Of a stretch of DNA of 22,908 nt, positions 880-16,555 are shown piece by piece (the first letter of the stretch is position 1; each line of letters starts with the position of its first letter). Under the pieces are notes generated by a model that worked only from the letters and a program-made list of their open reading frames with translations, ran no database searches and was not told the origin of the DNA. Position numbers and translations under genes: made by a program. The DNA comes from a virus, in IMG/VR virus record IMGVR_UViG_3300021959_005513, positions 1 through 22,908 of that record; one strand, given 5' to 3'.

Positions 880-1541
880 TGTTTGAACATGAAAAAATTG
901 ATATTGGATATGACGACTTGGTTGCAGAAACGAGTAATACTGGCAGATTATATATTACTCCTGATGGTAATTATCCTTCTGTTACTACAGTTCTAAGTAT
1001 CATAAAAGAAGAACAAATACAAGCATGGAGGGCTCGAGTTGGCGAAGAAGTAGCCAATAAAGTAAGTTCTTTTGCGGCTAATCGTGGCACTCTTGTCCAT
1101 GCTATTATAGAAGATTATCTTAACAATAAAGATACATCTGAATACTTACCTCACATACAACAATCGTTTAGAAACATCAAAACAATACTTGATGAACATA
1201 TAACTAAAATATATGGTCTAGAAGTTCCTCTCTACAGTAAACATTTGGGAGTGGCTGGTCGAGTAGATTGCGTTGCTTTATACGATAATGTCCCAACGAT
1301 TGTTGACTTCAAAACTTCAAGAAGAATAAAGAAAGCTGAAGATATATCAAATTACTTCGCACAGATGTCAGCTTATGCCATCATGTGGGAAGAAAGAACT
1401 GGTATGCCGATTGTAAACACTGTAATTGTCATGGATGTTGATGATGAAATGCCAATAGTATTTAAAGAACATCGTGATAATTGGGTCGATTTATTACAAA
1501 AAACAATAGCTGAATATAAAAAAAGAAAACTTTTTCGTTGA
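879..1541 (+). CDS. PD-(D/E)XK exonuclease (RecB/Cas4/MGME1-like)
   Basis: A 220-residue nuclease. The motifs of the PD-(D/E)XK exonuclease fold are visible in order: GTLVH at 70-74, E115 before the core, GRVD at 127-130, the catalytic IVDFKTS at 141-147 (D143, K145), and QMSAY at 162-166 as the Q-x3-Y motif. Length and layout match phage single-domain exonucleases annotated as RecB-like or MGME1-like. It probably acts on phage or host DNA ends in replication, recombination or host-genome breakdown. The start forms TAATG with the cupin stop. Its last codons overlap the upstream edge of promoter block A, so it closes a transcription unit. Confidence 0.85.
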   Translation: MFEHEKIDIGYDDLVAETSNTGRLYITPDGNYPSVTTVLSIIKEEQIQAWRARVGEEVANKVSSFAANRGTLVHAIIEDYLNNKDTSEYLPHIQQSFRNIKTILDEHITKIYGLEVPLYSKHLGVAGRVDCVALYDNVPTIVDFKTSRRIKKAEDISNYFAQMSAYAIMWEERTGMPIVNTVIVMDVDDEMPIVFKEHRDNWVDLLQKTIAEYKKRKLFR

Positions 1542-2630: not shown

Positions 2631-2871
2631 AAAAGCAAACTTTTTATTTTTTGAAACTTTAGAATTAAGATTTAAGTTCGAAGAAATGACTTCGGACTTC
2701 AAGTTTAATGATGATAAAAACAAGTCTGATATAAATACTCTCAAATGGTTTGTAAAAGAAGGATACAAATCTAATTCTTTAAGAGATAATTTCGAGGAAG
2801 CAAAAGAACTTGCTTTGATGATTATCAAAAACTATGAGAGGATTACGCATGTCAAAGAGTCTACAGAATAA
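2623..2871 (+). CDS. Small hypothetical protein (GTG start)
   Basis: About 82 residues (MNRKANFLFFETLELRFKF...), Lys/Glu/Phe-rich, probably a soluble helical protein. I chose GTG at 2623 because an AAGGA-like site at 2612-2616 is 6 nt upstream; TTG at 2620 would be too close. It overlaps the end of the HAD gene by 8 nt, and its end overlaps the next gene's start region. No family recognised. Confidence 0.6.
   Translation: MNRKANFLFFETLELRFKFEEMTSDFKFNDDKNKSDINTLKWFVKEGYKSNSLRDNFEEAKELALMIIKNYERITHVKESTE
2730..2737 (+). promoter_or_regulatory. Possible T4-type late promoter
   Basis: TATAAATA followed by CTC matches the T4 late promoter box. It lies inside the small hypothetical gene, about 110 nt before the EF-hand membrane gene and the glycan island. 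In AT-rich DNA this 8-mer is expected a few times by chance, so this is only a candidate. Confidence 0.3.
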
Positions 2872-3211
2872 CTCTATTTACGAGACTTTAGATGCAGACG
2901 GTGATGGTATAGTTAGTGATGAAGAAATGCAAAGAGCAAAAGAAATAGAAGAATTAGAATATCAAAGAATACGACACGAAAACGAAGACAAGAAAGAAGA
3001 TCAAATCAGAAAGATGGCTTGGTTTGCTTTATGGGGTATCTTACTATATCCTGTAGCAATTATCCTTTGTGCCTTAACTGGACAAGAACAAGGGGGTCAA
3101 TTACTTGCTGATATCGCACCAACATACTTTGTTGCGGCTGCTGGTTTAGTTGCTGCATTTTTTGGTGCTAATGCTTATGCGAAAAAGAATGGTGAGACAG
3201 TTAAAAAATAA
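2849..3211 (+). CDS. EF-hand protein with two membrane segments
   Basis: A 120-residue protein. An EF-hand calcium loop is clear near residues 15-27 (DADGDGIVSDEE: D-x-D-x-D-G-x-I-x3-E spacing). A charged, probably coiled-coil linker follows (EELEYQRIRHENEDKKEDQIRK). Two hydrophobic helices come next, one in AWFALWGILLYPVAIILCAL and one in YFVAAAGLVAAFFGANAYA. I start at ATG 2849 (MSKSLQNNSIYE), which has GAGAGGAT upstream; the in-frame ATG at 2834 lies inside that site. The layout (cytosolic Ca-binding head, two-helix membrane tail) would fit a holin-like or other membrane protein, but that is inference. It overlaps the first glycosyltransferase by 1 nt. Confidence 0.78.
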   Translation: MSKSLQNNSIYETLDADGDGIVSDEEMQRAKEIEELEYQRIRHENEDKKEDQIRKMAWFALWGILLYPVAIILCALTGQEQGGQLLADIAPTYFVAAAGLVAAFFGANAYAKKNGETVKK

Positions 3212-3999
3212 TGAAACAATTGATATATCAGGTCTATGTACACAATAGGTCTAATCTTTACGATTGGTGTACTGAGTCCGTTGCAAATTACTGCAAGAAA
3301 TATAATATAGACCACATCATACAAACGGAACCTATTCTACGAATTAAACCAAATGTTTTTCGTACGAATAGGTCTCCCGAATCCTATGGTAAATACGGTG
3401 GATATCTTCCAATATACGAAAAAGAAAATGCTTTTGATTACTTTGATAAGTATGACCAAATAGCAATTATTGATGCCGATATTTACATCAGAGATACAGC
3501 TCCTAATATATTTGATGAGTTATCTACTGCATACTGCTTTGGTGCAGTTGCAGAAAGAGAAATGCCATTAACAGAAGAATATGTTCGAAAGATACAAAAC
3601 TATTCTCGTATGCAATATGGTAATATGAAGAATGTAGAATTCTATTGGAATGACAAAGGTGCAGAGTTCTTTAATATGGGTATGATGGTAATGAACAAAT
3701 CAATTACAAAGTACATCAAAGGAAATGCAAGAGAGTTTCTAGAAAGAGCAGAATTTCAAGACTTTATAGATGGTATGGGTGCGTGGAAATGGTCAACTGA
3801 CCAGACACTATTGAATACTTGGGTAAAGAAGTATAAAATACCAACAAAGAATCTAAGTTGGAAATGGAATGGACTATACAAAGGTATAGATGACAATGCG
3901 ATAGAGGGTTGTCATTTTGTTCATTTCTTTCTACGAGATAAACTACCAAACAAAGGCGAAGATATAGAGAGGTTGTCAAATGAAATTTATCGCACATAG
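3211..3999 (+). CDS. Glycosyltransferase, GT-A/GT8-like with DxD motif
   Basis: A 262-residue probable nucleotide-sugar glycosyltransferase. It has a GT-A core with the metal-binding IDADIYIR (D88-x-D90). After it come FNMGMMVMNKS (the N-x-G-x-M loop common in GT8-like acceptor regions), STDQTLLN, and a C-terminal HFVHFF segment with a His that could bind metal or diphosphate. It opens the long island and ends with 20 nt of overlap with the GDPD-like gene. Its donor and acceptor are unknown. Soluble; no membrane segment seen. Confidence 0.78.
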   Translation: MKQLIYQVYVHNRSNLYDWCTESVANYCKKYNIDHIIQTEPILRIKPNVFRTNRSPESYGKYGGYLPIYEKENAFDYFDKYDQIAIIDADIYIRDTAPNIFDELSTAYCFGAVAEREMPLTEEYVRKIQNYSRMQYGNMKNVEFYWNDKGAEFFNMGMMVMNKSITKYIKGNAREFLERAEFQDFIDGMGAWKWSTDQTLLNTWVKKYKIPTKNLSWKWNGLYKGIDDNAIEGCHFVHFFLRDKLPNKGEDIERLSNEIYRT

Positions 4000-4564
4000 A
4001 GGAAACATCAACGGTAAAAATCCACAAAGAGAAAACAAACCAGAGTATATTGAGAGAGCATTATCATATGGTTATGATTGTGAAATAGATGTATGGTATA
4101 TTAATGGTGAATGGATATTAAGTCATGATAATCCCTTTGAGCCTGATTCTAAATCATTCTCTCATAAAGTAAACTTTGAGTTTCTCGGTAAAAAGAATCT
4201 ATGGTTACATTGTAAAAACATAGAGGCCATGATAAATCTATATGCGACAAAATATAATTATTTCTGGCACGAGAATGACAAATACACAATTACTAGTAGA
4301 GGTCATATTTGGTGTTTTCCTGACCAACCTGCACCAGCATTAACTATTAGAAGAACAGTTGATGACTTATATCAAAATGGTATGGCATTTTTACACAATA
4401 TGCCTAGAACTAGACAAACAATTGGTGTGTTACCAGAACTTAATGAAACGAATATATATCAGTATGATGCAATATGTACTGATGTGGTTAAGAAGTATGA
4501 ACCTGAAGTACAAGATGAACAACTTGAGTTAAAGATACATGAATATAAAACTGGTACTGTTTGA
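3980..4564 (+). CDS. GDPD-like phosphodiesterase
   Basis: A 194-residue protein of the glycerophosphodiester phosphodiesterase (PLC-like TIM barrel) type. The family signature is near the N-terminus: H6-R7-G, E18-N19, A27, E35-x-D37 and H49-D50 (MKFIAHRGN...EIDVWY...ILSHDNPF). The family hydrolyses glycerophosphodiesters with a divalent metal bound by the E-x-D pair. At 194 residues it is shorter than typical GDPDs (about 240-300), so the barrel may be minimal. GAGAGG precedes the start. It overlaps the next gene, a HAD-nucleotidyltransferase fusion, by 26 nt. In this setting a role in handling a phosphodiester-linked sugar or glycerol decoration is more likely than phospholipid catabolism; that is inference. 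Confidence 0.75.
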   Translation: MKFIAHRGNINGKNPQRENKPEYIERALSYGYDCEIDVWYINGEWILSHDNPFEPDSKSFSHKVNFEFLGKKNLWLHCKNIEAMINLYATKYNYFWHENDKYTITSRGHIWCFPDQPAPALTIRRTVDDLYQNGMAFLHNMPRTRQTIGVLPELNETNIYQYDAICTDVVKKYEPEVQDEQLELKIHEYKTGTV

Positions 4565-5894
4565 CCTAGATGGTGTACTAATAGATGCTAAAAAGATTCA
4601 CTATGATGCTTTAAACGAAGCACTCGGTGAAGAGTATGCGATATCAGAAAAAGAGCATACTAATCTATACGATGGTAGAAAAACCTTTGAGAAGTTAGAC
4701 TTACTAACTCAAAGAAAAGGTTTACCATCATCATCCCATAAACAAATATACGATAAGAAACAATCTATTACTATGACTAAGATATCTGCTCTAGAGCCGA
4801 TTGAAGAAATAGTAAAATTGTTTCAAGAACTTGAGAAACAAAACTTTCTGATTGGTGTTTGTTCAAACTCTATTCGTAGAACTGTATTAACAGCACTGGC
4901 TAAAACTCAGTTGATGGAATACTGTTCAGTAATCATATCAAACGAAGATGTAAAGAACTCTAAACCACACCCCGAAATGTACTGGAAAGCAATGTCTATG
5001 ATGACAGTCTTACCAGAAGAAACACTTATTGTTGAAGATAGTCCTCCTGGATTATTAGCCGCAGAAAGATCTAGAGCAAATTATATAAGAGTAAATAATC
5101 CATATGATGTAACAAGAGATAAGATATTCTCAAATTTAAAAGGTAGTAAAATGGCAAACATTTGGAAAGATGAGAAACTAAATGTCTTGATACCGATGGC
5201 AGGAGCTGGTTCAAGATTTCAACAGGCAGGATATACATTTCCTAAACCTATGATACAAGTACATACAAAACCAATGATACAAGTTGTAGTTGATAATTTA
5301 GGACTAGAAGCAAACTATCACTTTGTTGTACAAAAAGAACATAGAGAGAAATATAATTTAGATACTTTCCTTAATCTAATAGCACCTGGAAGTTGTCAAA
5401 TCATTGAAGTTGATGGTATAACTGAAGGAGCAGCCTGTACTGCTTTACTCGCCAAAGAATTTATTGATAATGATAACCCACTATTCTTTGCTAACAGTGA
5501 CCAGTTTGTTGAGTGGAATCCTGTAGAGTTTATGTATAATATGCAAGAAACAAATGCTGACGGTGGCATACTTACATTCAAAGCAACACACCCTAAATGG
5601 TCATTCGCTAAACTAAATGAAGAAGGATTAGTTACAGAAGTCGCAGAAAAGAATCCGATTAGTGATAACGCAACTGTTGGTTACTATTATTGGAAACATG
5701 GTTCAGACTTTGTTAAGTATGCTGAGGAAATGATAGAAAAAGATATAAGAGTGAATAACGAGTTCTATGTATGTCCAGTATTCAACCAAGCGATCGCTGA
5801 TGGTAAACAAATAAGAACTGTAAATGCTAATGCTATGTGGGGACTTGGTACACCAGAGGATTTACAATACTATCTAAATAATTACAAAGGTTAG
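4539..5894 (+). CDS. Fusion of HAD phosphatase and sugar-phosphate nucleotidyltransferase
   Basis: A 451-residue two-domain protein. Residues 1-200 are a HAD/beta-phosphoglucomutase-like domain: FDLDGVLID (D9, D11), GVCSNS, SKPHPEMY and VEDSPPG. Residues about 212-451 form a nucleotidyltransferase: LNVLIPMAGAGSRF (the G-x-G-x-R loop), PKPMIQV, FANSDQF for the metal/nucleotide site, and NEFYVCPVFNQ near the end. Such enzymes activate a sugar- or alcohol-phosphate with an NTP, and the HAD domain could dephosphorylate or trim the precursor. Met205 (ATG 5151) sits in the linker with an AAAGGT site upstream, so the second domain might also be made alone. It lies between GDPD-like and methyltransferase genes. 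Substrate unknown. Confidence 0.85.
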   Translation: MNIKLVLFDLDGVLIDAKKIHYDALNEALGEEYAISEKEHTNLYDGRKTFEKLDLLTQRKGLPSSSHKQIYDKKQSITMTKISALEPIEEIVKLFQELEKQNFLIGVCSNSIRRTVLTALAKTQLMEYCSVIISNEDVKNSKPHPEMYWKAMSMMTVLPEETLIVEDSPPGLLAAERSRANYIRVNNPYDVTRDKIFSNLKGSKMANIWKDEKLNVLIPMAGAGSRFQQAGYTFPKPMIQVHTKPMIQVVVDNLGLEANYHFVVQKEHREKYNLDTFLNLIAPGSCQIIEVDGITEGAACTALLAKEFIDNDNPLFFANSDQFVEWNPVEFMYNMQETNADGGILTFKATHPKWSFAKLNEEGLVTEVAEKNPISDNATVGYYYWKHGSDFVKYAEEMIEKDIRVNNEFYVCPVFNQAIADGKQIRTVNANAMWGLGTPEDLQYYLNNYKG

Positions 5895-5896
5895 AT

Positions 5897-6490
5897 ATGT
5901 ATAGAAAAGACAATCCTATTGGAATACCCAATATAAGAAACTTCAAGATATCAGAAGCATCTGAGATATTCAATAAAATCTATAATGAAAGTTATTGGAA
6001 ACACGGTGATGGTTCTGGTGGTAATTCTCAACCACATATTGTCGCAGACTTATTTCCTATCCTAGATGAGATATTTGAAACATATGATATTACAACTGTT
6101 GCTGATTTAGGTTGTGGTTCTCATTTTGTATTCAAAGATTATAAATGGCCTGACCATATACAATACACAGGATATGAAGCATCTACACTTGCGATAGAAA
6201 GAGCAAATAAGAATTGTAATAGAGATGACTTTACGTTTGTAGAGTGTTCTGACTTTAATGAAATCCCACCATGCGATTTTATATTCGCTAAAGATGTAAT
6301 TTGTCATTGGCACGTGGATTTAGTACACGAGTTCGTTGATAATATTATTCCTAAATTTAAGTATGGTGCGATTATAGGTGGTGTTGGCATTACATTAACT
6401 GAAAAGATAGAAAAAGATTGTACAACTAGTTGGTTAATGAAAACAGGAAAGGGTATAGATTATGGTGTCTGGTTATTTTCAAAACTGTAA
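5897..6490 (+). CDS. Class I SAM-dependent methyltransferase
   Basis: A 197-residue protein. Motif I is VADLGCGSHF (about residues 68-77), followed by an acidic strand end (YTGYEAS), FVECSDFNEIPPCDFIFAKDVICHW as motifs II-IV, and a GAIIGGVGIT strand. This is a Rossmann-fold SAM methyltransferase of the small-molecule/sugar type. It follows the nucleotidyltransferase by 2 nt with AAAGG before the ATG, and overlaps the sulfotransferase-like gene by 29 nt. It probably methylates a sugar or an activated intermediate of the same pathway (inference). Confidence 0.78.
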   Translation: MYRKDNPIGIPNIRNFKISEASEIFNKIYNESYWKHGDGSGGNSQPHIVADLFPILDEIFETYDITTVADLGCGSHFVFKDYKWPDHIQYTGYEASTLAIERANKNCNRDDFTFVECSDFNEIPPCDFIFAKDVICHWHVDLVHEFVDNIIPKFKYGAIIGGVGITLTEKIEKDCTTSWLMKTGKGIDYGVWLFSKL

Positions 6491-7076
6491 TTGTCATTAC
6501 TGTAAAAGAAATGGTGGATTTCCTCGTCATATCCACGTCAGAACGATAAACAGAAACTGGTTTGAAACACCAAAGAATGGTACAGTTAGTATCAAGTGGG
6601 GTTGTAAACTAAATCGTGCTGATGTACATGCTATGAACAATACAAAGAAACCATCAATCGTTGTATACCGAGACCCTGTTGATAGATTCAGAAGTACATT
6701 TCTACATTACTTCCATGAAGATGGTTTACGATTTCAAAATTTGGAAGGAAAAAGGTTTGGTGATGGTGTGGGATTCTTTGAGAATCTAGGTTATAACATA
6801 CACGAATTACGTTTACATGAACGAGCAGATATATTATTAGATAATTTAGATAAACTTTCAACTAAAGAAGAAGTTCATCACTGGTGGCCTCAAGTAGATT
6901 TCTTTAATACAGATGATATAGAAATTATACCTATGAGTAAAATCAATCAAACATTTAAAATAAAGGCAATATTAAATCAACAAAAAAAAGTAGATTTTGA
7001 GTTTACAAACGAACAAAAAAATAGTATAATAGAACTTTATAAAAAAGACTATGATTATTTTGAAGGAAAGATTTAG
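6462..7076 (+). CDS. Sulfotransferase-like protein
   Basis: A 204-residue protein resembling PAPS-dependent carbohydrate sulfotransferases. FETPKNGTVSIKWG (P37, K38, G40, T41) fits the 5'-phosphosulfate-binding loop. IVVYRDPVDRFRSTFLHYF (R70-D71-P72, R75, S78) fits the 3'-phosphate-binding motif. The spacing of about 30 residues and a C-terminal YKKDYDYF tail agree with small Golgi-type/bacterial sulfotransferases. Four Cys near the N-terminus and at residue 48 are unexplained. AAAGGG precedes the ATG. A role in sulfating a glycan made by the neighbouring enzymes is inferred. An alternative would be another P-loop transferase. Confidence 0.65.
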   Translation: MVSGYFQNCNCHYCKRNGGFPRHIHVRTINRNWFETPKNGTVSIKWGCKLNRADVHAMNNTKKPSIVVYRDPVDRFRSTFLHYFHEDGLRFQNLEGKRFGDGVGFFENLGYNIHELRLHERADILLDNLDKLSTKEEVHHWWPQVDFFNTDDIEIIPMSKINQTFKIKAILNQQKKVDFEFTNEQKNSIIELYKKDYDYFEGKI

Positions 7077-7285
7077 TGCAAGAAGAACAACGTTTAGTTA
7101 AATTATTGACAGGTGAATTGGTGTATGGTAATACAGGTGAAATACTAGATTATTGTAAGAAACACGATACGAATGTTCAAGAAGAATATAAGAATATTAC
7201 ACCATCAATTGTAGCAAAACAATTTAAATATATAGGTTATAGAATACATCAACCTTATGCGATATCAAGGAGTATGAATTATTAA
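7076..7285 (+). CDS. Small hypothetical protein (GTG start)
   Basis: About 69 residues starting at GTG 7076 in a TAGTG overlap with the upstream stop, with GAAGGAAAG upstream. It is basic and soluble (VKLLTGELVYGNTGEILDYCKK...), with no family recognised. The 1-nt overlaps on both sides and good ribosome site support it as real. It may be an accessory peptide of the glycan genes, but nothing in it shows this. Confidence 0.6.
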   Translation: MQEEQRLVKLLTGELVYGNTGEILDYCKKHDTNVQEEYKNITPSIVAKQFKYIGYRIHQPYAISRSMNY

Positions 7286-7995
7286 TGAAAGTCGCCGCTT
7301 TATATTCTGGATTAGTTCGTGAGTTTAAAGATTGGGAAGAGAATCATAAACGAATAACTCAACATTGTGATACTATATTATATACAACTTGGGAAGGTAG
7401 ACCTACACCAAAAAATAAAGATTGTATCACATTTCCTGAACCAGAAATAGATTATAAACCAATGCAAGTCCCCGAAGCAGTTGAAAGATGGCCTCGTATG
7501 AAGTTTCATTTAAACAACGAATCTCAAATGTGGTTGACTAAACAAATTATCGCTCATCAACTTGCTTGTAATTACATTAATAGTGATGAGTATGATGTGA
7601 TTATTCGTATGCGATATGATATATATGTGGGTGACCACGATTGGAAATTAGTTATCAATCGAGTTGCGAATGAAAATATAGTTATATCATTTGGTGGTTG
7701 GAATGGTGTGATGGATAGAACTAAAAATATACATGAAAATTTTATACTACCAACTTCTGAAAATGGTGGGACAAAAATGGAAGGTCAGATACTTGACTTT
7801 ATGAATATACACCCAGGATATAAAATGAAAGATGGAATCAAATTACATAATGAAAAGAAACTAATGCCTGCCAATCTAGGTTGGCAACAAGTATTAGGTG
7901 ATCCATATGAAGAAACACCAATCAACTATGGTGGTGGAGTTATGTTACAAAGATATAGAGAAAAGAATTTACATCATGTGCCAGGAGGATTTTAA
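7285..7995 (+). CDS. Putative glycosyltransferase, R-x-R-x-D type (tandem copy 1)
   Basis: A 236-residue protein beginning MKVAALYSGLVREF, the opening typical of WavE-like and related phage/LPS glycosyltransferases. YDVIIRMRYDIYV carries R108-x-R110-x-D112, which takes the place of DxD in such families. Further on are LHNEKKLMPANLGWQQVL and YGGGVMLQRY, both shared with the next gene. The pair is therefore a tandem duplication that has diverged. Predicted cytosolic. Donor and acceptor are unknown; the transferase assignment rests on motif resemblance. Confidence 0.6.
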   Translation: MKVAALYSGLVREFKDWEENHKRITQHCDTILYTTWEGRPTPKNKDCITFPEPEIDYKPMQVPEAVERWPRMKFHLNNESQMWLTKQIIAHQLACNYINSDEYDVIIRMRYDIYVGDHDWKLVINRVANENIVISFGGWNGVMDRTKNIHENFILPTSENGGTKMEGQILDFMNIHPGYKMKDGIKLHNEKKLMPANLGWQQVLGDPYEETPINYGGGVMLQRYREKNLHHVPGGF

Positions 7996-8759
7996 TGAAA
8001 GTCGCAGTATGTTTATCAGGTATTGTTAGAGGTCAGATTGCATTTAATATTCAGAGATTGAAACAAGCATTTCCTAATGCAGATTTCTTCTATGGAACTT
8101 ATACTGCAAGAGAAGAAGATTTACACTGGTTTCTTGGTATGGGTAACAATGATTATTATCTATTTGATGAACCAAAGATGCACTATCACCCAATACTTGA
8201 TGTAGAAGAAGTGTACACTCATAAACTCAAAACAATCAAAGAGAAAATGATAAAAGGTGAGATGGAAAAAGAAAAACAAAAAGTTGCACATCACACCAAA
8301 CAAATATTGAGTCATGCAAATCTATTACAACAATTGTGGCCTGACTATGATATGATTATTCGTGCAAGATGGGACACATTTGTTTCACTTGAAGTAGATT
8401 GGAAACCATGGATACAACAATCATACGAAGAAAACATTGCAATTGGATTTGGTACACGAACATCTCGTTGGAAAGATTTAGATTCTTTCTATGAAGTTCC
8501 TAAAGTTTATCCTGATGGTAAAGATGATAACATCAGTCAAGATTGGGGTCATTATCTTATGGACCCAATCATTATGCACCCTCGTAGTTTGTTAGACCCT
8601 AACTATGCATTTGAGTTACACGAACAAAAGAAACTACTACCTGCAGAAGTAGGTTGGTGGCAAGTGTTAAGTGAACCAACTGGTGGTGAAAGACATTTAT
8701 CAGTTTATGGTGGGGCACAAATAGAAAGATTTTTGAATAGAACAAGATATAAAAGATGA
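7995..8759 (+). CDS. Putative glycosyltransferase, R-x-R-x-D type (tandem copy 2)
   Basis: A 254-residue paralogue of the preceding gene. It shares MKVAVCLSGIVRG at the N-terminus, YDMIIRARWDTFV (R123-x-R125-x-D127), LHEQKKLLPAEVGWWQVL and a C-terminal YGGAQIERF. A Lys/Glu-rich helix at about residues 76-100 is an insertion absent from copy 1. It starts at the stop of copy 1 (1-nt overlap) with AGGAG upstream, and overlaps the GT25-like gene by 4 nt. Probably transfers a different sugar in the same glycan (inference). Confidence 0.6.
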   Translation: MKVAVCLSGIVRGQIAFNIQRLKQAFPNADFFYGTYTAREEDLHWFLGMGNNDYYLFDEPKMHYHPILDVEEVYTHKLKTIKEKMIKGEMEKEKQKVAHHTKQILSHANLLQQLWPDYDMIIRARWDTFVSLEVDWKPWIQQSYEENIAIGFGTRTSRWKDLDSFYEVPKVYPDGKDDNISQDWGHYLMDPIIMHPRSLLDPNYAFELHEQKKLLPAEVGWWQVLSEPTGGERHLSVYGGAQIERFLNRTRYKR

Positions 8760-9454
8760 AAAGTTTTATTATAACAATTAAAGATAACGAGTTATCTGAA
8801 AATGCCGCAAAGAAATGTATTGAATCTTCAGTTAAACTAGAAAATCCATTTAAAATAGAAGTGTTTGATGCTGTGACACCAAGACTTGTTGAAGGTCTTT
8901 TAAACAAATATAATTTAAGATGGAACTATCCATGGCAAGGTGAAGAGTTTGATTTCAGTACAGGATTAAAAAAGTCAGCATATAAAACTGCAGATCCTAA
9001 GAAAAGAATAGCATGCGCATTAAGTCATTATAGATTATGGAAATGGTGTTCTGATAATCATGAACATTGTTTAGTATTAGAACACGATGCTATATTTTTG
9101 CAAAGATTAGACCCAGTTTATATTTTAAATAGTAATTTTAATGTTGTTGGTATAAACAATCCTATCGGTAATACTAGGAAAGCAAAACTGTTTAATGATA
9201 TGGTACAAGAACAAAGAAGTGTGCCGATAGTAATGACACCAACTATTGATGATGTTAGTGTTCCTCAAGGAATCGCTGGTAACTCAGCTTATATAATACA
9301 CCCAACAGGAGCTCGAGCTTTATTAGATCTTGCACATTTACATGGTCTTTGGCCAAACGATGCTTTGATGTGTAAACAGCTTGTGAAAAGACTTGGAGTA
9401 ACTACTAAATATTATACAAGTACACAAGGAATAGAATCAACTACTGTGAATTGA
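8756..9454 (+). CDS. GT25-family (LPS-type) glycosyltransferase, tandem copy 1
   Basis: A 232-residue protein with the GT25 layout. It opens with SFIITIKDN followed by an A-A-x-x-C-I helix. Then come FDAVTP, ACALSHYRLWKW (S90-H91) and CLVLEHDAIF (E109-H110-D111, the usual E-x-D metal motif). GNSAYIIHPTGARAL follows near residue 177. GT25 enzymes add galactose, glucose or similar sugars to LPS or proteins. The next gene is a related copy. Start in a 4-nt overlap with the preceding gene. Confidence 0.8.
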   Translation: MKSFIITIKDNELSENAAKKCIESSVKLENPFKIEVFDAVTPRLVEGLLNKYNLRWNYPWQGEEFDFSTGLKKSAYKTADPKKRIACALSHYRLWKWCSDNHEHCLVLEHDAIFLQRLDPVYILNSNFNVVGINNPIGNTRKAKLFNDMVQEQRSVPIVMTPTIDDVSVPQGIAGNSAYIIHPTGARALLDLAHLHGLWPNDALMCKQLVKRLGVTTKYYTSTQGIESTTVN

Positions 9455-9455
9455 T

Positions 9456-10187
9456 ATGAATTTTTATATTATAAGAATAAAAGATAACGAATATTCAGTA
9501 AAAGCCGCTGAGAGATGCTTAAAGTCTTTGAGAGAATTTTATGGCGAACAAATAAATGAATGTTACTTTGATGCCATAACACCAAAAGATAATCCAACTA
9601 GATTGCTAAAAGAAGATGGTGTTGTAAAATTAAATGGTTTTATAGAACCATACTCTAGATGGGATAATGTTATATCAGCATTCACTTCTCACTTTTCTAT
9701 TTGGAAACAAATATTAAAAACTCAAAAGTCTGGTATAATTTTTGAGCATGATGCGGTCGTAATAAATGCATTACCAATCGTAACAAAGAAAGTTCCGATC
9801 GATAATACTTCTAATTCACCATATAAAATAAAAATCAAACCGGATCCAAGATTAGGAGATATAGTAAATCTAGGACAACCATCTTATGGTAAATTCAACA
9901 CTCCTGCCAATATAGGAATAAATCCCCTCACATCTAAAAGATATTTTCCTGGAGCCCATGCTTATTATGTATCACCCAAAGGTGCTGAACAACTAATAGA
10001 AGTTGCTAAAAGAGAAGCAGGTCCGACTGATGTTTTTATAAATTATAGAAGATTTAATAATTTACAAGAGTGGTATCCATGGTCAGCTATGGCTAAAGAT
10101 AATTTTAGCACTATTCAAAATGTTAATGGTTGTCAAGCAAAACACGGATATAATCCTGAGAGGTATAAACTTGTACAAGTTCGATAA
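9456..10187 (+). CDS. GT25-like glycosyltransferase, tandem copy 2
   Basis: A 243-residue paralogue of the previous GT25-like gene: FYIIRIKDNEYSVKAAERCL at the N-terminus, FDAITPKDN, AFTSHFSIWKQ (S78-H79), GIIFEHDAVV (E97-H98-D99) and GAHAYYVSPKGAEQL. Conserved motif order shows the same fold, while the C-terminal half differs, suggesting a different sugar specificity. It lies 1 nt after the previous stop, and its 3' end overlaps the next gene (TTG start 10171) by 17 nt. Confidence 0.77.
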   Translation: MNFYIIRIKDNEYSVKAAERCLKSLREFYGEQINECYFDAITPKDNPTRLLKEDGVVKLNGFIEPYSRWDNVISAFTSHFSIWKQILKTQKSGIIFEHDAVVINALPIVTKKVPIDNTSNSPYKIKIKPDPRLGDIVNLGQPSYGKFNTPANIGINPLTSKRYFPGAHAYYVSPKGAEQLIEVAKREAGPTDVFINYRRFNNLQEWYPWSAMAKDNFSTIQNVNGCQAKHGYNPERYKLVQVR

Positions 10188-10839
10188 AGCATTTGTTACT
10201 GGCTGTGATAAGTCTAATGAATGGATGTTAGACTGGTTCGTAGATAATTATTTGAAACATAATGATACACCCATCGTATTCGCAGACTTCGGTATAAGTG
10301 AAGAAAAACTAGAACAAATCAATAAAGAAAAAAAGTTTTATGCAGTAATGCATTTTAAAAAAGAAAGAAACTTTGCAGGATGGTTTCTTAAACCAACTGC
10401 TCTCATACACACGCCCGCACGCGAAGTAGTTTGGATTGATACTGATTGTGAAGTATTAAATGATTTATCAGGTATATTTGATGACTTAATGCCTATGAGA
10501 TTAAATATGGTTCAAGATAGACCTTGGTCAAAAAGAAATAGTAGTAAAGGACCTTGGTATAACTCTGGTATTGTTGGTATAGTGAATAGACCAAATATAC
10601 TTAAACAATGGGAAATCGCCTGTACAAATAATCCAGTATACAGAGGAGACCAAGAAGTCCTATATTTTATGTTAGATGAAATAGCAAAACTAACTCATAT
10701 AAACGAATTACATAACAAGTATAATGTTATAAGATTACAGTATGTTGATGGTACTGTACCAAAACAAGTATTAGTAAAACACCATACAGGTTTTAAAGGT
10801 AAAGAAAAAATTCGTGAATTGATGAATGAACAGAAGTGA
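10171..10839 (+). CDS. Glycosyltransferase with DxD motif (GT8-like), TTG start
   Basis: A 222-residue protein. I start at TTG 10171 (MYKFDKAFVTGCDK) because GAGAGG lies 7 nt upstream. The longer frame from ATG 10120 would sit inside the conserved end of the preceding gene and has no ribosome site. EVVWIDTDCEVLNDL gives D90-x-D92, the metal-binding motif of GT-A enzymes; WYNSGIVGIVNRP and GDQEVLYFML match the acceptor-side loops, and VKHHTGFKGK the C-terminal His region, of GT8-like enzymes. It overlaps the radical SAM gene by 14 nt. Confidence 0.75.
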   Translation: MYKFDKAFVTGCDKSNEWMLDWFVDNYLKHNDTPIVFADFGISEEKLEQINKEKKFYAVMHFKKERNFAGWFLKPTALIHTPAREVVWIDTDCEVLNDLSGIFDDLMPMRLNMVQDRPWSKRNSSKGPWYNSGIVGIVNRPNILKQWEIACTNNPVYRGDQEVLYFMLDEIAKLTHINELHNKYNVIRLQYVDGTVPKQVLVKHHTGFKGKEKIRELMNEQK

Positions 10840-11416
10840 AATAAATCTAGACATAACTCATAGGTGTCTTTTACAATGCCCTAAATGCCAGCGAAATGTA
10901 TTTCCTGGTTTACATAAACGAGGACATGACTTATCAATAAAAGATTTCAAAAAAATATCTGATTACTTTAGCAAGATTGTATTCTGTGGTCAGATGAGCG
11001 ATCCTATATACCACCCAAACTTTTTAGACTTTTTAGAAATATCAAAAGATAGAGAAGTATCAGTTGATACGAATGGTCATGGGAAAGGATGGAAGTTCTG
11101 GGCAAAAGCATTTACATATAAGAATATTACTTGGCGATTTGGTTTAGATGGCTTGCCCAAAGATAGTCATAAGTATAGAATCAATCAAGATGGTGAACAC
11201 GTATTTGAAGTCATGAAGTTTGGTAAATCTATGGATGCAAATATACATTGGAATTACATCGTTTTCAAATACAATGAGAACGATATAAAAACAGCTAAAT
11301 ACATAGCAAAGGGAAATGGAATAAAATTAAATATTATCAAATCATCTAGATGGGATTTAAACGATGATTACAAACCATCTAAAATGTATTTAGAAAATCA
11401 GAGGAGTTTAATTTGA
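10826..11416 (+). CDS. Radical SAM enzyme core without its C-terminal domain
   Basis: A 196-residue protein. HRCLLQCPKCQR holds the canonical C14-x3-C18-x2-C21 motif for the 4Fe-4S cluster that splits S-adenosylmethionine. FCGQMSDPIYHP corresponds to the GG(E/M)P-like strand-2 region, and VSVDTNGHG to strand 3. It is about the length of a bare core; full members of this phage group continue into a Cys-rich SPASM/twitch domain. That domain is missing here, but a matching 90-residue Cys-rich protein lies at 13022, after the B12 radical SAM gene. Substrate unknown; possible roles include peptide, sugar or nucleotide modification. Confidence 0.82.
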   Translation: MNRSEINLDITHRCLLQCPKCQRNVFPGLHKRGHDLSIKDFKKISDYFSKIVFCGQMSDPIYHPNFLDFLEISKDREVSVDTNGHGKGWKFWAKAFTYKNITWRFGLDGLPKDSHKYRINQDGEHVFEVMKFGKSMDANIHWNYIVFKYNENDIKTAKYIAKGNGIKLNIIKSSRWDLNDDYKPSKMYLENQRSLI

Positions 11417-13035
11417 AAGTATTAATGGTATATCCTAACTTACCTTTGATGATGACGCCAGCATTGGCTGTTGCTTTATTCAATACTATATGTAAGGAAG
11501 AAGGAGCAGAATTTAAACTGTTTGAAACTACAGAGTATTCTAAAGAATACGAAAATAGGCATATCGCATTAACAAAGTTTGGTGGGAACAGAGGCAATCA
11601 AAGAGGAGATACTGATGATGATTATTTTGATATAAAACCATTAGAAAGAATTGTCCCAGACTTCATTGAAACAGTTGAAAGTTATAAACCAGACTTAATT
11701 CTAATGTATGCTCAAGAAGATGTTGTAGGAGTATCTCTAGATCTTTTAAATAGTATTAAAGATAAAAACATACCGCATATAGTTGGTGGTGTATATGCTA
11801 TGTCAGTTCCTGAAGAATTAATCAGAGAACCTTTAGTAAACATAATATGCCGATATGAGGGAGAAACAGTTGTTCGTCAAGCAATAAGAGCATTTAAAGA
11901 AAAGAAAGCAATTACAGGTATAGATGGTATTTGGTGGAAGGATGAGAATGGTGAAATACATCGAAACAAACCAGCAAAATTAGTTGATATTACAGAAGTA
12001 GAGCCTGATTATAGTTGCTATCAAAAAGGTAGATGGGAACGACCAATGGGTGGTCGCCATTTCTATAGAGCAATCGCAATGGAAACATATCGTGGTTGTC
12101 CTTATCAATGTACATATTGTAATTCTCCTGTTACTAGAGATATCGCAAAGGGATTAGATCTAGGAAACTTCATGAGAAGGAAACCAGCTCATATTATAGA
12201 AAAGGAATTATTAAATTTCTTTGATAAAGGATTAGAACCAGATTTGGTTATTTTTATTGATGATAGTTTCTTAGCAAGACCAGCTAAAGAAATATACGAG
12301 TTCTGTGATATGTGGAGTAAATATAAAATTCCATTCTGGTTCAATACTAGAATTGAAAACTGCAAACCAGATTATTTGAAAGCATTAAAAGAAGCTGGTT
12401 GCTATAGAATGTCATTTGGTATTGAAGCTGGTAATGAAGAATATCGTGCCAAGTATTTAAAAAGAGCTGTTAAGAATAAAGTCTATCACGAACATTTAAA
12501 GTATATAAATGAAAGTAACATACCATATAGTCTTAATGCTATAATCGGATTACCGTACGAGACCAGAGAACTAGTTCTTGATACAGCTAGACTTTTCCAT
12601 CATGCTAAAGGATATGATGGTATAACATTAGCAATATGGCAACCGTATAGAGGAACTGAGTTAAGAGATATCGCAGTAGAAGCAGGGTTTATAAAACGAG
12701 ATGATAAAATAAAAATGGCTGGATTCTTAAACTTTGATAATTCAGATACTGGTATAAAAATGCCAAAACCATACTTACAACAAGATGAGATGGCGAAACT
12801 GGCTAAGACTTTTTCTCTTTATGCTTACTATCCTGAAGAAATATGGGATCTAGTAAGAGAATCTGAAACTAATGAAAAATTATATGATGAGTTAATGAAA
12901 AATTATAAACAGAACTTTTATTTCGGTGAGTTCCATTCTGGTGGTGCCGATAAGATACAATATCTAAATAAGTTCTGTGCGAAACACGATATATCATCAA
13001 CATATCAATGGGAGACAATGGTTGCTATATCCTAG
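11413..13035 (+). CDS. B12-binding-domain radical SAM enzyme
   Basis: A 540-residue protein starting at TTG 11413 with GAGGAG 6 nt upstream. Residues about 1-165 form a cobalamin-binding-like Rossmann domain (MKVLMVYPN..., HIVGGVYAMSVPEE). The DxHxxG lower-ligand motif is absent, as in many class B enzymes. GCPYQCTYC carries C229-x3-C233-x2-C236. IFIDDSFL, SFGIEAGNEE and NAIIGLPYETRE are the usual strands 3-5 of this family. Members are mostly methyltransferases acting on unactivated carbon or phosphorus, or ring-rearranging enzymes. The C-terminal 13 nt overlap the SPASM-like gene. Cofactor supply would come from the host. Confidence 0.85.
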   Translation: MKVLMVYPNLPLMMTPALAVALFNTICKEEGAEFKLFETTEYSKEYENRHIALTKFGGNRGNQRGDTDDDYFDIKPLERIVPDFIETVESYKPDLILMYAQEDVVGVSLDLLNSIKDKNIPHIVGGVYAMSVPEELIREPLVNIICRYEGETVVRQAIRAFKEKKAITGIDGIWWKDENGEIHRNKPAKLVDITEVEPDYSCYQKGRWERPMGGRHFYRAIAMETYRGCPYQCTYCNSPVTRDIAKGLDLGNFMRRKPAHIIEKELLNFFDKGLEPDLVIFIDDSFLARPAKEIYEFCDMWSKYKIPFWFNTRIENCKPDYLKALKEAGCYRMSFGIEAGNEEYRAKYLKRAVKNKVYHEHLKYINESNIPYSLNAIIGLPYETRELVLDTARLFHHAKGYDGITLAIWQPYRGTELRDIAVEAGFIKRDDKIKMAGFLNFDNSDTGIKMPKPYLQQDEMAKLAKTFSLYAYYPEEIWDLVRESETNEKLYDELMKNYKQNFYFGEFHSGGADKIQYLNKFCAKHDISSTYQWETMVAIS

Positions 13036-13294
13036 ATGTATGAAAAACAAACCACCTGCATATTCTGCGACTGGTTATATATTACCATGTTGTTGGTGTG
13101 ATAATGAAAATATAGAGGACTTTGATTTTATGATGAAAGAACATCTTCATATTTCAAATATAGATAATATTGATGATATATTTTTATCAGATGAGTGGAC
13201 AGAGTTTCGTAAAAGATTAGAAACAAACCCACCAAGAGTATGTAAAAAATATTGTTCAAGTGAATGGGAAACTAAAAGGATTGAGAATGAGTAA
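13022..13294 (+). CDS. Stand-alone SPASM/twitch-like Fe-S domain (TTG start)
   Basis: A 90-residue protein (MLYPRCMKNKPPAY...). The Cys pattern C6, C23-C24-x-C26, then C74-x3-C78, with GYILPCCWCD and a W-x(3)-R-x2-L segment between, is that of the C-terminal auxiliary-cluster (SPASM/twitch) half of phage radical SAM proteins. TTG 13022 has GGAGA 6 nt upstream. The ATG at 12977 would lie well inside the preceding gene. It probably belongs with the radical SAM core at 10826, which lacks this part; two polypeptides would have to assemble, or one gene has been split. Confidence 0.7.
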   Translation: MLYPRCMKNKPPAYSATGYILPCCWCDNENIEDFDFMMKEHLHISNIDNIDDIFLSDEWTEFRKRLETNPPRVCKKYCSSEWETKRIENE

Positions 13295-13916
13295 GAAAGT
13301 TGTTCATGTAATTGGTAATGGTATGATGGCTCAATTATTTGACCATAACGCAAAAGGATTGAGATTGTGTTGTAATCTCGCACCATTTCCAGTAGATAAT
13401 GTGTATGCATCTTGTATTGTTGATTTTAAAATGATGCGAGCATTAACAGAAGGTTCCATACAAATTCCTGGAAAATGGATATTAGGATATAGACCAAAAA
13501 TACATATGAGTCAGAATCCACAATTTCATATGCATGTTTCTGATAGGATTAGGGAATTTTATTTAGAAAAACCAGCATATGCCGCAAACTATACTGATTT
13601 CAATTGCGGGCACTTTGCAGTATATTATGCTTCTCAAAAACTACAAGCAGATGAGGTTCATTTATATGGATTTGATTCTTTATTTGATTTTGATTTACGA
13701 AGTTGTACTGACTTCTATTTAAGTTCTCAAAGAGATAACATGAATACTCATAGACTTAATGGTAACTGGAGACCTATATGGTATCATATGTTCCATGAAT
13801 TTAAAGATATAAATTATAAACTTTATCATAAACATAATGATATTAAGATTGAACCTCTACCAGATAATGTAGAAATTGTTATAAAAGATCCTAAACAAGT
13901 GAAAGTGAATCAATGA
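13287..13916 (+). CDS. Conserved phage protein, possibly sialyltransferase/DUF115-like
   Basis: A 209-residue protein. Start at ATG 13287 (MSKKVVHVIGNGMMAQ), with AAAGGA upstream. The N-terminal strand-turn (VIGNG), and CGHFAVYYASQKLQADEVHLYGFDSLFDF in the middle, resemble the fold of GT42/DUF115-type proteins, in which G-x-D follows a helix and strand. The similarity is by eye and weak. It overlaps the SPASM-like gene by 8 nt and the cupin by 4 nt. Its context suggests glycan or nucleotide-sugar work; it could equally be a binding protein. Confidence 0.5.
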   Translation: MSKKVVHVIGNGMMAQLFDHNAKGLRLCCNLAPFPVDNVYASCIVDFKMMRALTEGSIQIPGKWILGYRPKIHMSQNPQFHMHVSDRIREFYLEKPAYAANYTDFNCGHFAVYYASQKLQADEVHLYGFDSLFDFDLRSCTDFYLSSQRDNMNTHRLNGNWRPIWYHMFHEFKDINYKLYHKHNDIKIEPLPDNVEIVIKDPKQVKVNQ

Positions 13917-14257
13917 AAGCAGGAAAGATATGGGGACAAACAGAACTTATCCATGCTAATGGAGTTCTAGAGTTTCATAGAATAGAATTTAAAAAAGGAT
14001 ATAAATGCTCCGAACATCTACACGAATTTAAATGGAATGGATTCTTTGTAGAGTCAGGAAAGATGTTAGTTCGTGTATGGCAAGACGACCAAGGTCTTGT
14101 AGATGAAACAATATTAGAAGCTGGAGATTTTACTAGAGTAAAGCCACAACTGGTACATCAGTTTGAAGGATTAGAAGATGGAGTAGCATTTGAATTATAT
14201 TGGGCTGAATTTAATCACGATGATATAGTGAGGAGAAATGCAGGAAAAAAAGTCTAA
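13913..14257 (+). CDS. Cupin-domain protein (second cupin)
   Basis: A 114-residue single cupin. EHLHEFKWNGFFVESGKMLVRVW is cupin motif 1 (H34-x-H36), and GDFTRVKPQLVHQFEG is motif 2 with the third His. It resembles small cupins near sugar-modifying genes. The start overlaps the previous stop (ATGA). It differs in sequence from the cupin at 547, so the two are not recent duplicates. Function unknown. Confidence 0.75.
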   Translation: MKAGKIWGQTELIHANGVLEFHRIEFKKGYKCSEHLHEFKWNGFFVESGKMLVRVWQDDQGLVDETILEAGDFTRVKPQLVHQFEGLEDGVAFELYWAEFNHDDIVRRNAGKKV

Positions 14258-14732
14258 AAAAAGTATTTACAAATACGAAAAAGATAAATATAATAAACCT
14301 ATGATAAGGGAAATGGTAAATCTAGTTGATGTATATGGTGGTACAAAATATCGCCGAGAACTTGCCGAAAAGGTCGTACAATTCTGTATCGGTCAAATGC
14401 TTCCTCGTATAAAAACACTTGATATTATGGTAGAACTCGAATCGGGAACTTCATTCGAAGATGGTACTACCGGTTGTTGTTATGCGATGGCTCATCGTGA
14501 GTTTAAAATGGATATATGTGCTAATCAAACTGAAGAAGAATTTATCAGATCTATATGCCATGAGATGGTTCATATCAAACAATATATTCGTGAAGAGTTT
14601 ATTGAAGAATTAGTGGATTATGAAACAATGGCAGAATATTTTAATCAACCTTCCGAAAAGGAAGCATATAGTATGGAAGAGGAGTTATATAAAGAATGGC
14701 TACTAGTGAACAGAGAAGTAAAGAAGTCTTAG
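14238..14732 (+). CDS. Zinc metallopeptidase-like protein (HExxH)
   Basis: A 164-residue protein. SICHEMVHIKQY holds H108-E109-x2-H112, the zinc-binding and catalytic motif. KEAYSMEEELY downstream supplies Glu residues that could be the third ligand (gluzincin or SprT-like arrangement). GGAG sits just before ATG 14238, so the Lys-rich N-terminus (MQEKKSKKSIYKYEKDK) is real. A promoter-like sequence lies under those codons. Phage proteins of this kind are common, but their targets are not known. Confidence 0.7.
   Translation: MQEKKSKKSIYKYEKDKYNKPMIREMVNLVDVYGGTKYRRELAEKVVQFCIGQMLPRIKTLDIMVELESGTSFEDGTTGCCYAMAHREFKMDICANQTEEEFIRSICHEMVHIKQYIREEFIEELVDYETMAEYFNQPSEKEAYSMEEELYKEWLLVNREVKKS
14266..14294 (+). 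promoter_or_regulatory. Possible internal promoter
   Basis: TTTACA (14266-14271), exactly 17 nt, then TATAAT (14289-14294). The preceding AAAAAAAGTATTTAC matches the run before the promoter at 16569. It lies inside the metallopeptidase gene and could feed the coiled-coil, glutaredoxin and TAGT genes downstream. Confidence 0.5.
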
Positions 14733-14836: not shown

Positions 14837-15065
14837 AATCTATTCTCAGTCAGGATGTATCTATTGCGACGCCGCAATGGATCTCCTTGACAAAAAAGAA
14901 ATAGTTTACGAGGAAGTAAAAATTGATAACAATGATGAGGAAAAGGCATTTCTTAAATCGCAAGGTTTTAGAACAGTACCACAAATTTATAATGAGTTAG
15001 GTGAACATATCGGTGGATATATGGATCTTAAAGATTACTTTGATGCCGGTCAAGATAAAGTATGA
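14820..15065 (+). CDS. Glutaredoxin
   Basis: An 81-residue thioredoxin-fold protein of glutaredoxin length. SGCIYCDAA contains the redox pair C13-x2-C16; TVPQIY is the cis-proline loop (P54); GGYMDL is the glutathione-binding Gly motif. It would reduce disulfides with glutathione, classically feeding ribonucleotide reductase in phage nucleotide synthesis. Start codon ATG 14820 overlaps the coiled-coil gene, and its end overlaps the TAGT-type gene by 4 nt. Confidence 0.92.
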   Translation: MTGLYRIYSQSGCIYCDAAMDLLDKKEIVYEEVKIDNNDEEKAFLKSQGFRTVPQIYNELGEHIGGYMDLKDYFDAGQDKV

Positions 15066-16555
15066 ATGTAAAAGAAACTACTAATTACGATAACTATTTA
15101 AACAAACCACTTCAAGATGATTATAAAGCAACTCTTGAAGAACATACCAATATTAAAGTTGGTCTCCCACAAAAATTAAAATCAAAAGAAGAGAAAGCTG
15201 GTGTATATAAAACACTACCTGTACATTTTCGTAATGTCGATGACATGGCTGACTATTGTTCATTAATTGGTCAGTGTATTGATTACAAAACAAAGATCGC
15301 ATATTTTCCTAAAGTAGATCCAGAAACTTCACTCTTTGATGAGGAAGAACCGACTAATATAAAAATAGATAAATCATTACTAATACCAAAAGAAAAAGAA
15401 GTAAAAGAAAAACCAAATATTGAAGATGTCAATTCTAACTGGCGAGAACATTGGATTGATATGCCAGAATATATTATTCAGACTGTGCGTTCTTTTAGAA
15501 GTATAGAAATGTACTTTAGAACTGAAAAAGATTATAAGGATTTCTCTATTAGAGTAGGACAAGATTTAAATTCTGAATCAATTAGTATTTGGTATCCAAA
15601 GCAAGAAATTATACAGAATAAAAAGTACCGATGGGTTGATACCTCTTCTCCACGTCCTTTAAAACATCCCCTATACATCGTTTCGAAGGGTAGATCGGAC
15701 TCTATGCTAACTTCTAGATCTTTATCAAGAATGAAGATCCCACACTATATTGTTATCGAACCTCAGGATGAAGCTGATTATGAAAGTGCTTTGGATAACT
15801 TTAATATAAGAGAATATGTAACATTACTCATAGCACCATTCTCTAATCATGGTGACGGTCCTGGAAGAGCAAGAAACTGGGCATGGGATCACTCTATTGA
15901 AATAGGAGCAAAATGGCATTGGGTGTTAGATGATAATATAAGAGATTTTTATAGATACAATGATGGCGAGCGAGTAAGATTTGAAAGTTCTACTGGCTTT
16001 CGTATTATGGAAGACTTTTGTGATAGATACGAAAACGTTTATATAGCTGGACCGCAGTATCGTTCTTTTGTTCATACCTTTTCTTATAAACCACCATATC
16101 TTGCTAACACTAGAATATATTCCTGCTTATTAATTAGGAATGATTGTAAGCATAGGTGGAGAGGAAGATATAACGAAGATACCGATATTTGTTTACGAGT
16201 GATGAAAGATGGGGATGTATGTTTACAGTTCCATGCTTTTCTACAAGATAAAGTTATGACGCAAGCGATTGCTGGTGGTAATACAGCTGAATTCTACCAC
16301 GCAGAAAATACTGAATCTATTGATAATGGATGGAATAGTGATGGTACTATAAACAAATCGCAGATGTTAGCTGATATGCATCCTGATGTTACTAGAGTTG
16401 TTTGGAAATTTGGAAGATGGCATCATCATGTAAATTATACTCCATTCAAAAAGAATAAACTAAAATTAAAACCGAATCTAAATCTATCAAAAGATATTAA
16501 TGAATATGGCTTGGTTTTGACTAGAGATTTTAAAGATCCAAGATGGACAAAATAA
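15062..16555 (+). CDS. TET-associated-type (DNA) glycosyltransferase with duplicated N-terminal module
   Basis: A 497-residue protein. Residues 205 onward match the TAGT glycosyltransferase layout: PLYIVSKGRSDS, HYIVIEPQDEADY, GPGRARNWAWDH (266-277), WHWVLDDNIRDFYR (D290-D291-N292), GRYNEDTDICLRVM, and AGGNTAEFYHAE. Such phage enzymes are predicted to add sugars to hydroxymethylated bases in DNA. The N-terminus holds two copies of a 35-residue module, VHFRNVDDMADYCSLIGQ (about 54-84) and MYFRTEKDYKDFSIRVGQ (about 150-182), each ending in a (Y/W)(F/Y)P. A Lys/Glu-rich linker joins them. No TET oxygenase or base hydroxymethylase is in the window. The product may protect phage DNA from host defence (inference). 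Confidence 0.75.
   Translation: MNVKETTNYDNYLNKPLQDDYKATLEEHTNIKVGLPQKLKSKEEKAGVYKTLPVHFRNVDDMADYCSLIGQCIDYKTKIAYFPKVDPETSLFDEEEPTNIKIDKSLLIPKEKEVKEKPNIEDVNSNWREHWIDMPEYIIQTVRSFRSIEMYFRTEKDYKDFSIRVGQDLNSESISIWYPKQEIIQNKKYRWVDTSSPRPLKHPLYIVSKGRSDSMLTSRSLSRMKIPHYIVIEPQDEADYESALDNFNIREYVTLLIAPFSNHGDGPGRARNWAWDHSIEIGAKWHWVLDDNIRDFYRYNDGERVRFESSTGFRIMEDFCDRYENVYIAGPQYRSFVHTFSYKPPYLANTRIYSCLLIRNDCKHRWRGRYNEDTDICLRVMKDGDVCLQFHAFLQDKVMTQAIAGGNTAEFYHAENTESIDNGWNSDGTINKSQMLADMHPDVTRVVWKFGRWHHHVNYTPFKKNKLKLKPNLNLSKDINEYGLVLTRDFKDPRWTK

Follow-up and report, generated by a model that had tools for sequence, protein, structure and literature searches.

The DNA analyzed here is a 22,908-base stretch of the IMG/VR virus record IMGVR_UViG_3300021959_005513 (positions 1 to 22,908, referred to as the window), in which an island of 15 open reading frames (ORFs), g01 to g15, occupies positions 3211-13916 on the + strand (Table 1). 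Neighboring ORFs overlap or abut, with intergenic gaps of -68 to +2 bases. A first-pass annotation made from the sequence alone had counted sixteen overlapping + strand genes; the overlaps were confirmed and fifteen of the genes lie in the island, while the sixteenth, the cupin gene g16, starts at 13913 and stands outside. Proteins were assigned to families using Pfam, PHROGs and NCBIfam, and the family motifs searched for in each gene were all found, except for one substitution in g02, a protein resembling glycerophosphodiester phosphodiesterases (GDPDs). Chance ORFs could be excluded because hundreds of other contigs hold orthologues. Two near-identical contigs (L010 and L005) come from the window's own sample, and contig L011 matches g01-g07 at 81-96% and agrees in gene content and order as far as it extends; a search of GenBank phages at the DNA level gave no match. 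The island is a variant of the marine T4-like 'lipopolysaccharide (LPS) cluster' whose donor module and chassis protein are uncharacterised; it is a real and probably functional modular glycan cassette built on a conserved chassis.

Table 1. Predicted genes of the island and of its surroundings in the window, with the evidence for each assignment (SAM, S-adenosylmethionine; PAPS, 3'-phosphoadenosine-5'-phosphosulfate; AF2, AlphaFold 2; dN/dS, ratio of nonsynonymous to synonymous substitution rates).
Feature	Position	Strand	Evidence
PD-(D/E)XK/phage exonuclease, conserved left flank	879..1541	+	phrog_298 E 3e-66; upstream of island in many relatives
Small predicted membrane protein, conserved left flank	2834..3211	+	homologues 44-59%
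g01 glycosyltransferase GT8, chassis	3211..3999	+	PF01501 E 2.5e-5 (just above cut-off), DAD motif
g02 GDPD-superfamily protein, compact barrel	3980..4564	+	motifs, profile search, AF2 model, linkage to g03
g03 HAD (beta-phosphoglucomutase-like)-sugar nucleotidyltransferase fusion	4539..5894	+	PF13419 (HAD_2) E 2e-30; PF00483 (NTP_transferase) E 3e-11
g04 SAM methyltransferase, passenger	5897..6490	+	PF08241 E 3e-5 (above cut-off); dN/dS 0.17 vs L011
g05 PAPS sulfotransferase-like, passenger	6462..7076	+	PF03567 E 0.004, score 17.7 below cut-off 22; PAPS motifs
g06 small protein, passenger	7076..7285	+	ORF; 87% in L011
g07 putative glycosyltransferase, paralogue of g08	7285..7995	+	phrog_13607, WavE-like
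g08 putative glycosyltransferase	7995..8759	+	phrog_13607, WavE-like; RxRxD motif invariant over 18 sequences
g09 glycosyltransferase GT25, chassis	8756..9454	+	PF01755 E 2e-12; EHD motif; ordered core
g10 glycosyltransferase GT25, chassis	9456..10187	+	PF01755 E 2e-11; ordered core
g11 GT8/glycogenin-like glycosyltransferase, chassis	10120..10839	+	profile match to glycogenin E 4e-4; DTD motif; ordered core
g12 radical SAM enzyme, catalytic half, passenger between g11 and g15	10826..11416	+	CLLQCPKC; PF04055 E 3e-5
g13 B12-binding radical SAM enzyme, passenger	11413..13035	+	PF04055 E 5e-16; PF02310 E 3e-5, below its cut-off
g14 SPASM cluster-binding half of g12 (probable)	12977..13294	+	PF13186 E 6e-4, just below cut-off; matches Mosig_00085
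g15 chassis protein, putative transferase	13260..13916	+	confident AF2 fold; at least 487 viral relatives
g16 cupin, passenger	13913..14257	+	phrog_7851 family ('cysteine dioxygenase', annotation also in cyanophage LPS clusters)
g17, conserved right flank	14238..14732	+	phrog_10499; borders the island on the right in many relatives
TAGT, TET-associated DNA glycosyltransferase-type protein	15062..16555	+	PF20691 E 1e-40, 140 bits vs cut-off 27.5
Tail (fibre) assembly chaperone	18506..18868	+	PF16778 E 2e-9; phrog_8746 tail fiber assembly

Among the glycosyltransferases proposed in the first-pass annotation, the GT8 protein g01 and the GT25 pair were borne out and g11 proved to be GT8-like, while g07 and g08 belong to no Pfam family; a bacterial relative of these two matches WavE at 3e-5. 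The gene neighborhoods of relatives were compared in IMG/VR, where all counts are minimum values; per search, the best 80 loci were read in detail. The HAD-nucleotidyltransferase fusion g03 (HAD/NTP) has at least 598 relatives there, and in the loci read the recurrent order was exonuclease, small membrane protein, GT8, GDPD, HAD/NTP, variable genes and then a conserved 3′ part consisting of GT25, GT25, GT8-like, g15 and g17. Orthologues of g01 (55-61%) lie 5′ of the HAD/NTP gene in relatives, and the small membrane protein keeps its position in contigs L012, L013, L019, L025, L027 and L040. To avoid the bias of the HAD/NTP bait, g15 was used as a second bait, and its loci were dereplicated at 90% identity. 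In this search for the same gene order in marine phages, which the first-pass annotation had suggested, the order GT25, GT25, GT8-like, g15 was present in 41 of 41 loci (L184 being the window's own lineage, and L244 having an unrecognised third gene), and no motif losses speaking against the chassis were seen. The four genes were contiguous in 33 of the 41 loci, with the GT8-like gene and g15 adjacent in 38. In the 35 g15 loci having at least seven upstream genes, a GT8 gene preceded the core in 26 and a nucleotidyltransferase-domain gene, often stand-alone rather than a HAD/NTP fusion, in 10; GDPD did so in a single locus. Therefore, the four-gene chain is regarded as the chassis, and HAD/NTP and GDPD as passengers. 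An unusual trait of the window's lineage is the insertion of three radical SAM-type genes between g11 and g15. For g15 itself, neither a profile search nor a comparison of the AF2 fold gave a convincing match in the PDB; an assignment to the sialyltransferase-like families GT29/GT42 was unsupported, with weak MptE-like matches only.

The donor module comprises g02 and g03. For g02, Pfam gave no match, and its earlier reading as a GDPD-like enzyme was upheld by other evidence: the motifs HR..EN..ExD..HD, including both catalytic histidines and the ExD metal pair, are invariant over 33 relatives, and a profile search of the PDB finds GDPDs (E 0.001). The AF2 model has the GDPD 2o55 as its best PDB match (probability 0.99, E 3e-3, TM only 0.44), a GDPD-type fold being possible. 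Where GDPDs have a third acidic ligand for the metal, the E of the IEIK strand, the presumed equivalent in g02 is the invariant H77 of an HCK motif; the protein is therefore called GDPD-like and not GDPD, and given this exchange its reaction may differ from that of GDPDs. The predicted HAD-nucleotidyltransferase fusion was corroborated by strong matches to both domain families. In 18 sequences aligned with 6h8y, D9/D11 (the DxD nucleophile), H21 and K74 of g03 are invariant, the latter two being the equivalents of His20 and Lys76 of beta-phosphoglucomutase (bPGM), which are important for mutase activity. Because these equivalents are invariant, the favored prediction is that the HAD domain supplies the pyrophosphorylase by acting as a phosphosugar mutase or as a sugar phosphatase. 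Its score against the curated bPGM model TIGR01990 is below the cut-off (80.9 vs 189.4).

Of 59 dereplicated viral loci, 43 have a GDPD gene no more than 2.1 kb from HAD/NTP and on its strand; it precedes the fusion in 20 loci and follows it in 23. Flanks are short in about half of the 16 loci lacking GDPD. Among bacterial and archaeal records, a GDPD gene lies within 2.5 kb of a HAD/NTP fusion in 15 of 25 loci and near an unfused HAD gene with two nucleotidyltransferase genes in 42 of 49, the GDPD scores of the latter being low (18-28 bits). The Kosakonia locus of the module contains rml genes and an ABC-type exporter, recognised by eye, and the Pelagibacter locus an RmlC-type gene. The persistence of this linkage when order, fusion and host change speaks for a pathway common to GDPD and HAD/NTP. 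A heptose route is possible because in phages S-SM2 and Bellamy the GDPD-like gene lies beside genes annotated as phosphoheptose isomerase; S-SM2 also has a gene annotated as heptose kinase. In the HAD/NTP tree, the window falls, with good support, among phage sequences that form a clade (17 rows, 100/100; 26 rows, 95/82). Recent capture of the gene from a Pelagibacter-like host was rejected, as contigs of metagenome-assembled genomes branch next to the phage clade and Pelagibacter and Legionella stand apart. No literature on a HAD/NTP/GDPD operon was found. GDPD and HAD/NTP could form an undescribed pathway to a nucleotide-activated sugar or phospho-sugar, present in surface-polysaccharide loci of bacteria and in hundreds of marine viruses. 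In the window's lineage, its product would be altered by the B12 enzyme and then attached by an undescribed transferase chassis, in which g15 would represent a new transferase family; as a whole, we regard this combined proposal as less likely than not.

The methyltransferase, sulfotransferase-like, radical SAM and B12 radical SAM proteins of the first-pass annotation were all recovered. The methyltransferase match lies above its cut-off, g05 contains both the 5′-PSB (PKNGTVS) and the 3′-PB (RDPVDRFRS) PAPS motifs, which are kept in L011, beside its weak Pfam match, and g12 and g13 each match PF04055 and carry cluster motifs. In g13 this is CxxxCxxC (C229/C233/C236), joined to a cobalamin-binding domain in an HpnJ/PhpK/AprD4-like protein. 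The SPASM-like domain had been listed as a component of its own; its match in g14 is weak, and g12 and g14 are probably one split radical SAM/SPASM enzyme with g13 inserted between the halves, because they match Mosig_00084 (42% for g12) and Mosig_00085, adjacent genes in Pelagibacter phage Mosig. g04-g06 and g12-g14 are missing from nearly all relatives. Scans with g12 and g05 found same-lineage contigs only; beyond weak matches, g13 occurs in IMG/VR only in a same-sample contig and in L014, and no B12 radical SAM of this type was found in GenBank phages. In L014, the homologue (about 50%) lies directly 3′ of g15, and the next gene is of the KdsB-like CMP-Kdo synthetase (cytidylyltransferase) type (L014:18186-20587), a neighbor that hints at a CMP-sugar as a candidate substrate of the B12 enzyme. 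In related islands, the variable slots are occupied by genes for epimerase/dehydratases, GDP-mannose dehydratase-like proteins, several methyltransferases (among them FkbM), a hexapeptide transferase, two kinds of sulfotransferase, PIG-L, cupin, GATase and radical SAM proteins, and the g08 family is common there. The cupin of the Kosakonia locus was considered as a homologue of g16 and rejected (no match at E 1e-3).

Regarding the carrier, five of the 35 long contigs of relatives encode T4-type gp23 (PF07068), and the only GenBank phage with a g15 relative (41%), C48C1 of the Kyanoviridae, has other window genes too; the carrier is thus predicted to be a T4-like, Kyanoviridae-related marine phage. 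For seven genes compared between the window and L011, dN/dS was 0.05-0.28 (Nei-Gojobori method, one pair), indicating purifying selection in this pair.

The first-pass annotation had proposed a single pathway that makes an unusual decorated sugar or phosphate and attaches it to phage DNA, virion or host glycan. A role in building and decorating glycans is well supported. The idea of a single fixed pathway is only partly correct: most relatives share the chassis, but they differ in the donor module and in the enzymes for radical, methyl and sulfate chemistry. Within the collections searched, the exact gene set occurs only in the window's lineage; a single unprecedented pathway would be too strong a claim. 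The best explanation, in which we place middling confidence, is a modular glycan-assembly cassette acting on the host LPS or surface-glycan pathway. Inside the infected cell, the soluble GT8 and then GT25-GT25-GT8-like-g15 would build a short oligosaccharide. Its special donor, a sugar or phospho-sugar activated by a nucleotide, would come from the HAD/NTP fusion and its GDPD-like partner: the HAD domain, resembling bPGM, would move or remove a phosphate, and the second domain would attach the nucleotide. The methyltransferase, the sulfotransferase, the radical SAM/SPASM pair and the B12 radical SAM enzyme, all exchangeable, would vary the sugar chemistry. As the island has no recognisable polymerase, flippase or exporter gene, the cytoplasmic face of the host pathway would be the likeliest acceptor, so that the cell surface would be altered during infection, which may protect e.g. 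against superinfection. GT8 and GT25 are classic LPS transferase families. The authors of the pelagimyophage paper favor O-chain modification (PMC7029224); in the consulted portions of this and the cyanophage paper, a change of host LPS is not demonstrated for the published clusters either (PMC3037559, PMC7029224). Several points weigh against the host-directed cassette: neither a lipid-linked acceptor nor an initiating transferase could be identified, GDPD is not obligatory, being absent from several HAD/NTP loci with complete flanks, the dN/dS values come from a single genome pair and a simple method, and a tail-assembly gene 4.6 kb downstream would fit glycosylation of the virion too.

The latter would place the sugars on virion proteins (tail fibres or capsid), e.g. 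varying receptor binding or escaping grazers or defence, and the virion is our second choice of acceptor after the host surface glycan. Besides the nearby chaperone gene, it would account for transferases lacking a recognised membrane or lipid-carrier partner, and in pelagimyophages the cluster for host recognition contains glycosyltransferases as well as tail fibres (PMC7029224). Against it stand the LPS-type families GT8 and GT25, the upstream neighbors in several relatives, which are ribonucleotide reductase, GIY-YIG and exonuclease genes and not fibres, and the occurrence of the HAD/NTP and GDPD module in bacterial surface-polysaccharide loci. A literature search for a link between virion glycosylation in phages and a sulfotransferase gave no result. 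We consider virion glycosylation possible at a tentative level. Attachment of the sugars to hypermodified phage DNA, with the help of TAGT, appears unlikely: the strong TAGT match 1.1 kb downstream of g15, and its presence beside the island in three relatives, speak for it, but 32 of 35 long relative contigs (chassis or module) lack TAGT, among them a 141-kb contig without a thymidylate-synthase-family gene, although absence from fragments is not proof, and neither a TET nor a hydroxymethylase gene could be recognised in the window. DNA is thus disfavored as the target of the chassis, and TAGT probably has a function separate from the island. Finally, the genes could be host-derived, non-functional 'stuffer DNA' filling a headful genome, a reading left open for cyanophage LPS clusters by Sullivan et al. 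2010 (PMC3037559) and in keeping with the fast turnover of passenger genes. It is disfavored because dN/dS is well below 1, the chassis order is kept in every dereplicated g15 locus and active-site residues are invariant; the ORFs are also tightly packed and the HAD/NTP phage clade has diverged within phages, which leaves the stuffer reading very improbable.

Further observations concern genes in and around the window. A P-loop kinase (20824-21510) with Zeta-toxin and AAA_33 matches has homologues of 41-46% in several related contigs, and a small glycine-zipper protein (Rick_17kDa_Anti) at 80-550 is possibly membrane or outer-membrane related. Sister glycan islands carry, directly 5′ of a stand-alone sugar nucleotidyltransferase gene, a gene for a RuBisCO-superfamily protein of ~360 aa (L187:5051-6139; PDB matches to E 2e-24), also present in 15 g15 loci (L189, L190, L191, L193, L195, L199, L200, L201, L221, L224, L226, L228, L231, L234 and L248). 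Seven of these sequences were aligned; the KPK and GGADFIKEDE motifs are kept and the loop-6 region contains no lysine, so that a RuBisCO-like protein is likely rather than a carboxylase. In bacteria, the order NTP1-GDPD-HAD-NTP2 was seen at L124:8600-11386 and in ~40 other polysaccharide-type loci of several phyla, where Pfam gives no match for the GDPD-like proteins and a weak one for NTP2.

Separating a conserved core (GT8...GT25-GT25-GT8-like-g15) from exchangeable decorations makes the question of function or filler testable for islands of T4-like ocean phages, and the uncharacterised donor module, common to phages and bacteria, opens its chemistry to assays with purified proteins.

Compared with known systems, the island resembles the LPS clusters of the T4-like cyanophages P-SSM2, S-SM2 and S-SSM7, which unite glycosyltransferases and sugar-nucleotide enzymes in one island (PMC3037559). 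S-SM2 and Bellamy share homologues of the GDPD-like and nucleotidyltransferase proteins and 'cysteine dioxygenase' cupins, and in S-CAM9 a ribonucleotide reductase gene and a GIY-YIG gene lie upstream of a HAD/NTP fusion (57%), a setting that recurs in relatives of the window. In contrast to these clusters, the window has additional genes for a sulfotransferase and for radical SAM and B12 radical SAM enzymes, genes of photosynthesis were not seen in it, and its chassis marker g15 is matched in GenBank phages by C48C1 only. The host recognition cluster of pelagimyophages is likewise hypervariable and rich in glycosyltransferases, with GT8 as the commonest family (PMC7029224). The SAR11 phage isolate Mosig EXVC030M has the same split radical SAM and SPASM gene pair among exotic enzymes; in the stretch read, this pair is the only match to the window, and g15 is absent by tblastn. 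That island (MT647606.1, ~54500-71300), beside a tail fibre gene, carries nitroreductases, MoaA-like radical SAM genes, aminotransferases, a carbamoyltransferase, dioxygenases and a fatty-acid-desaturase-like gene. The bacterial NTP1-GDPD-HAD-NTP2 operons (Kosakonia, Pseudomonas, Paraburkholderia, Vibrio) have homologous HAD and nucleotidyltransferase parts and a linked GDPD-like gene; their GDPD proteins are longer than those of the phages and similar at the profile level only, and in phages and Pelagibacter HAD and NTP are fused, with no second nucleotidyltransferase beside them. Like the window, Pelagibacter has a GDPD-like part together with the HAD/NTP fusion.

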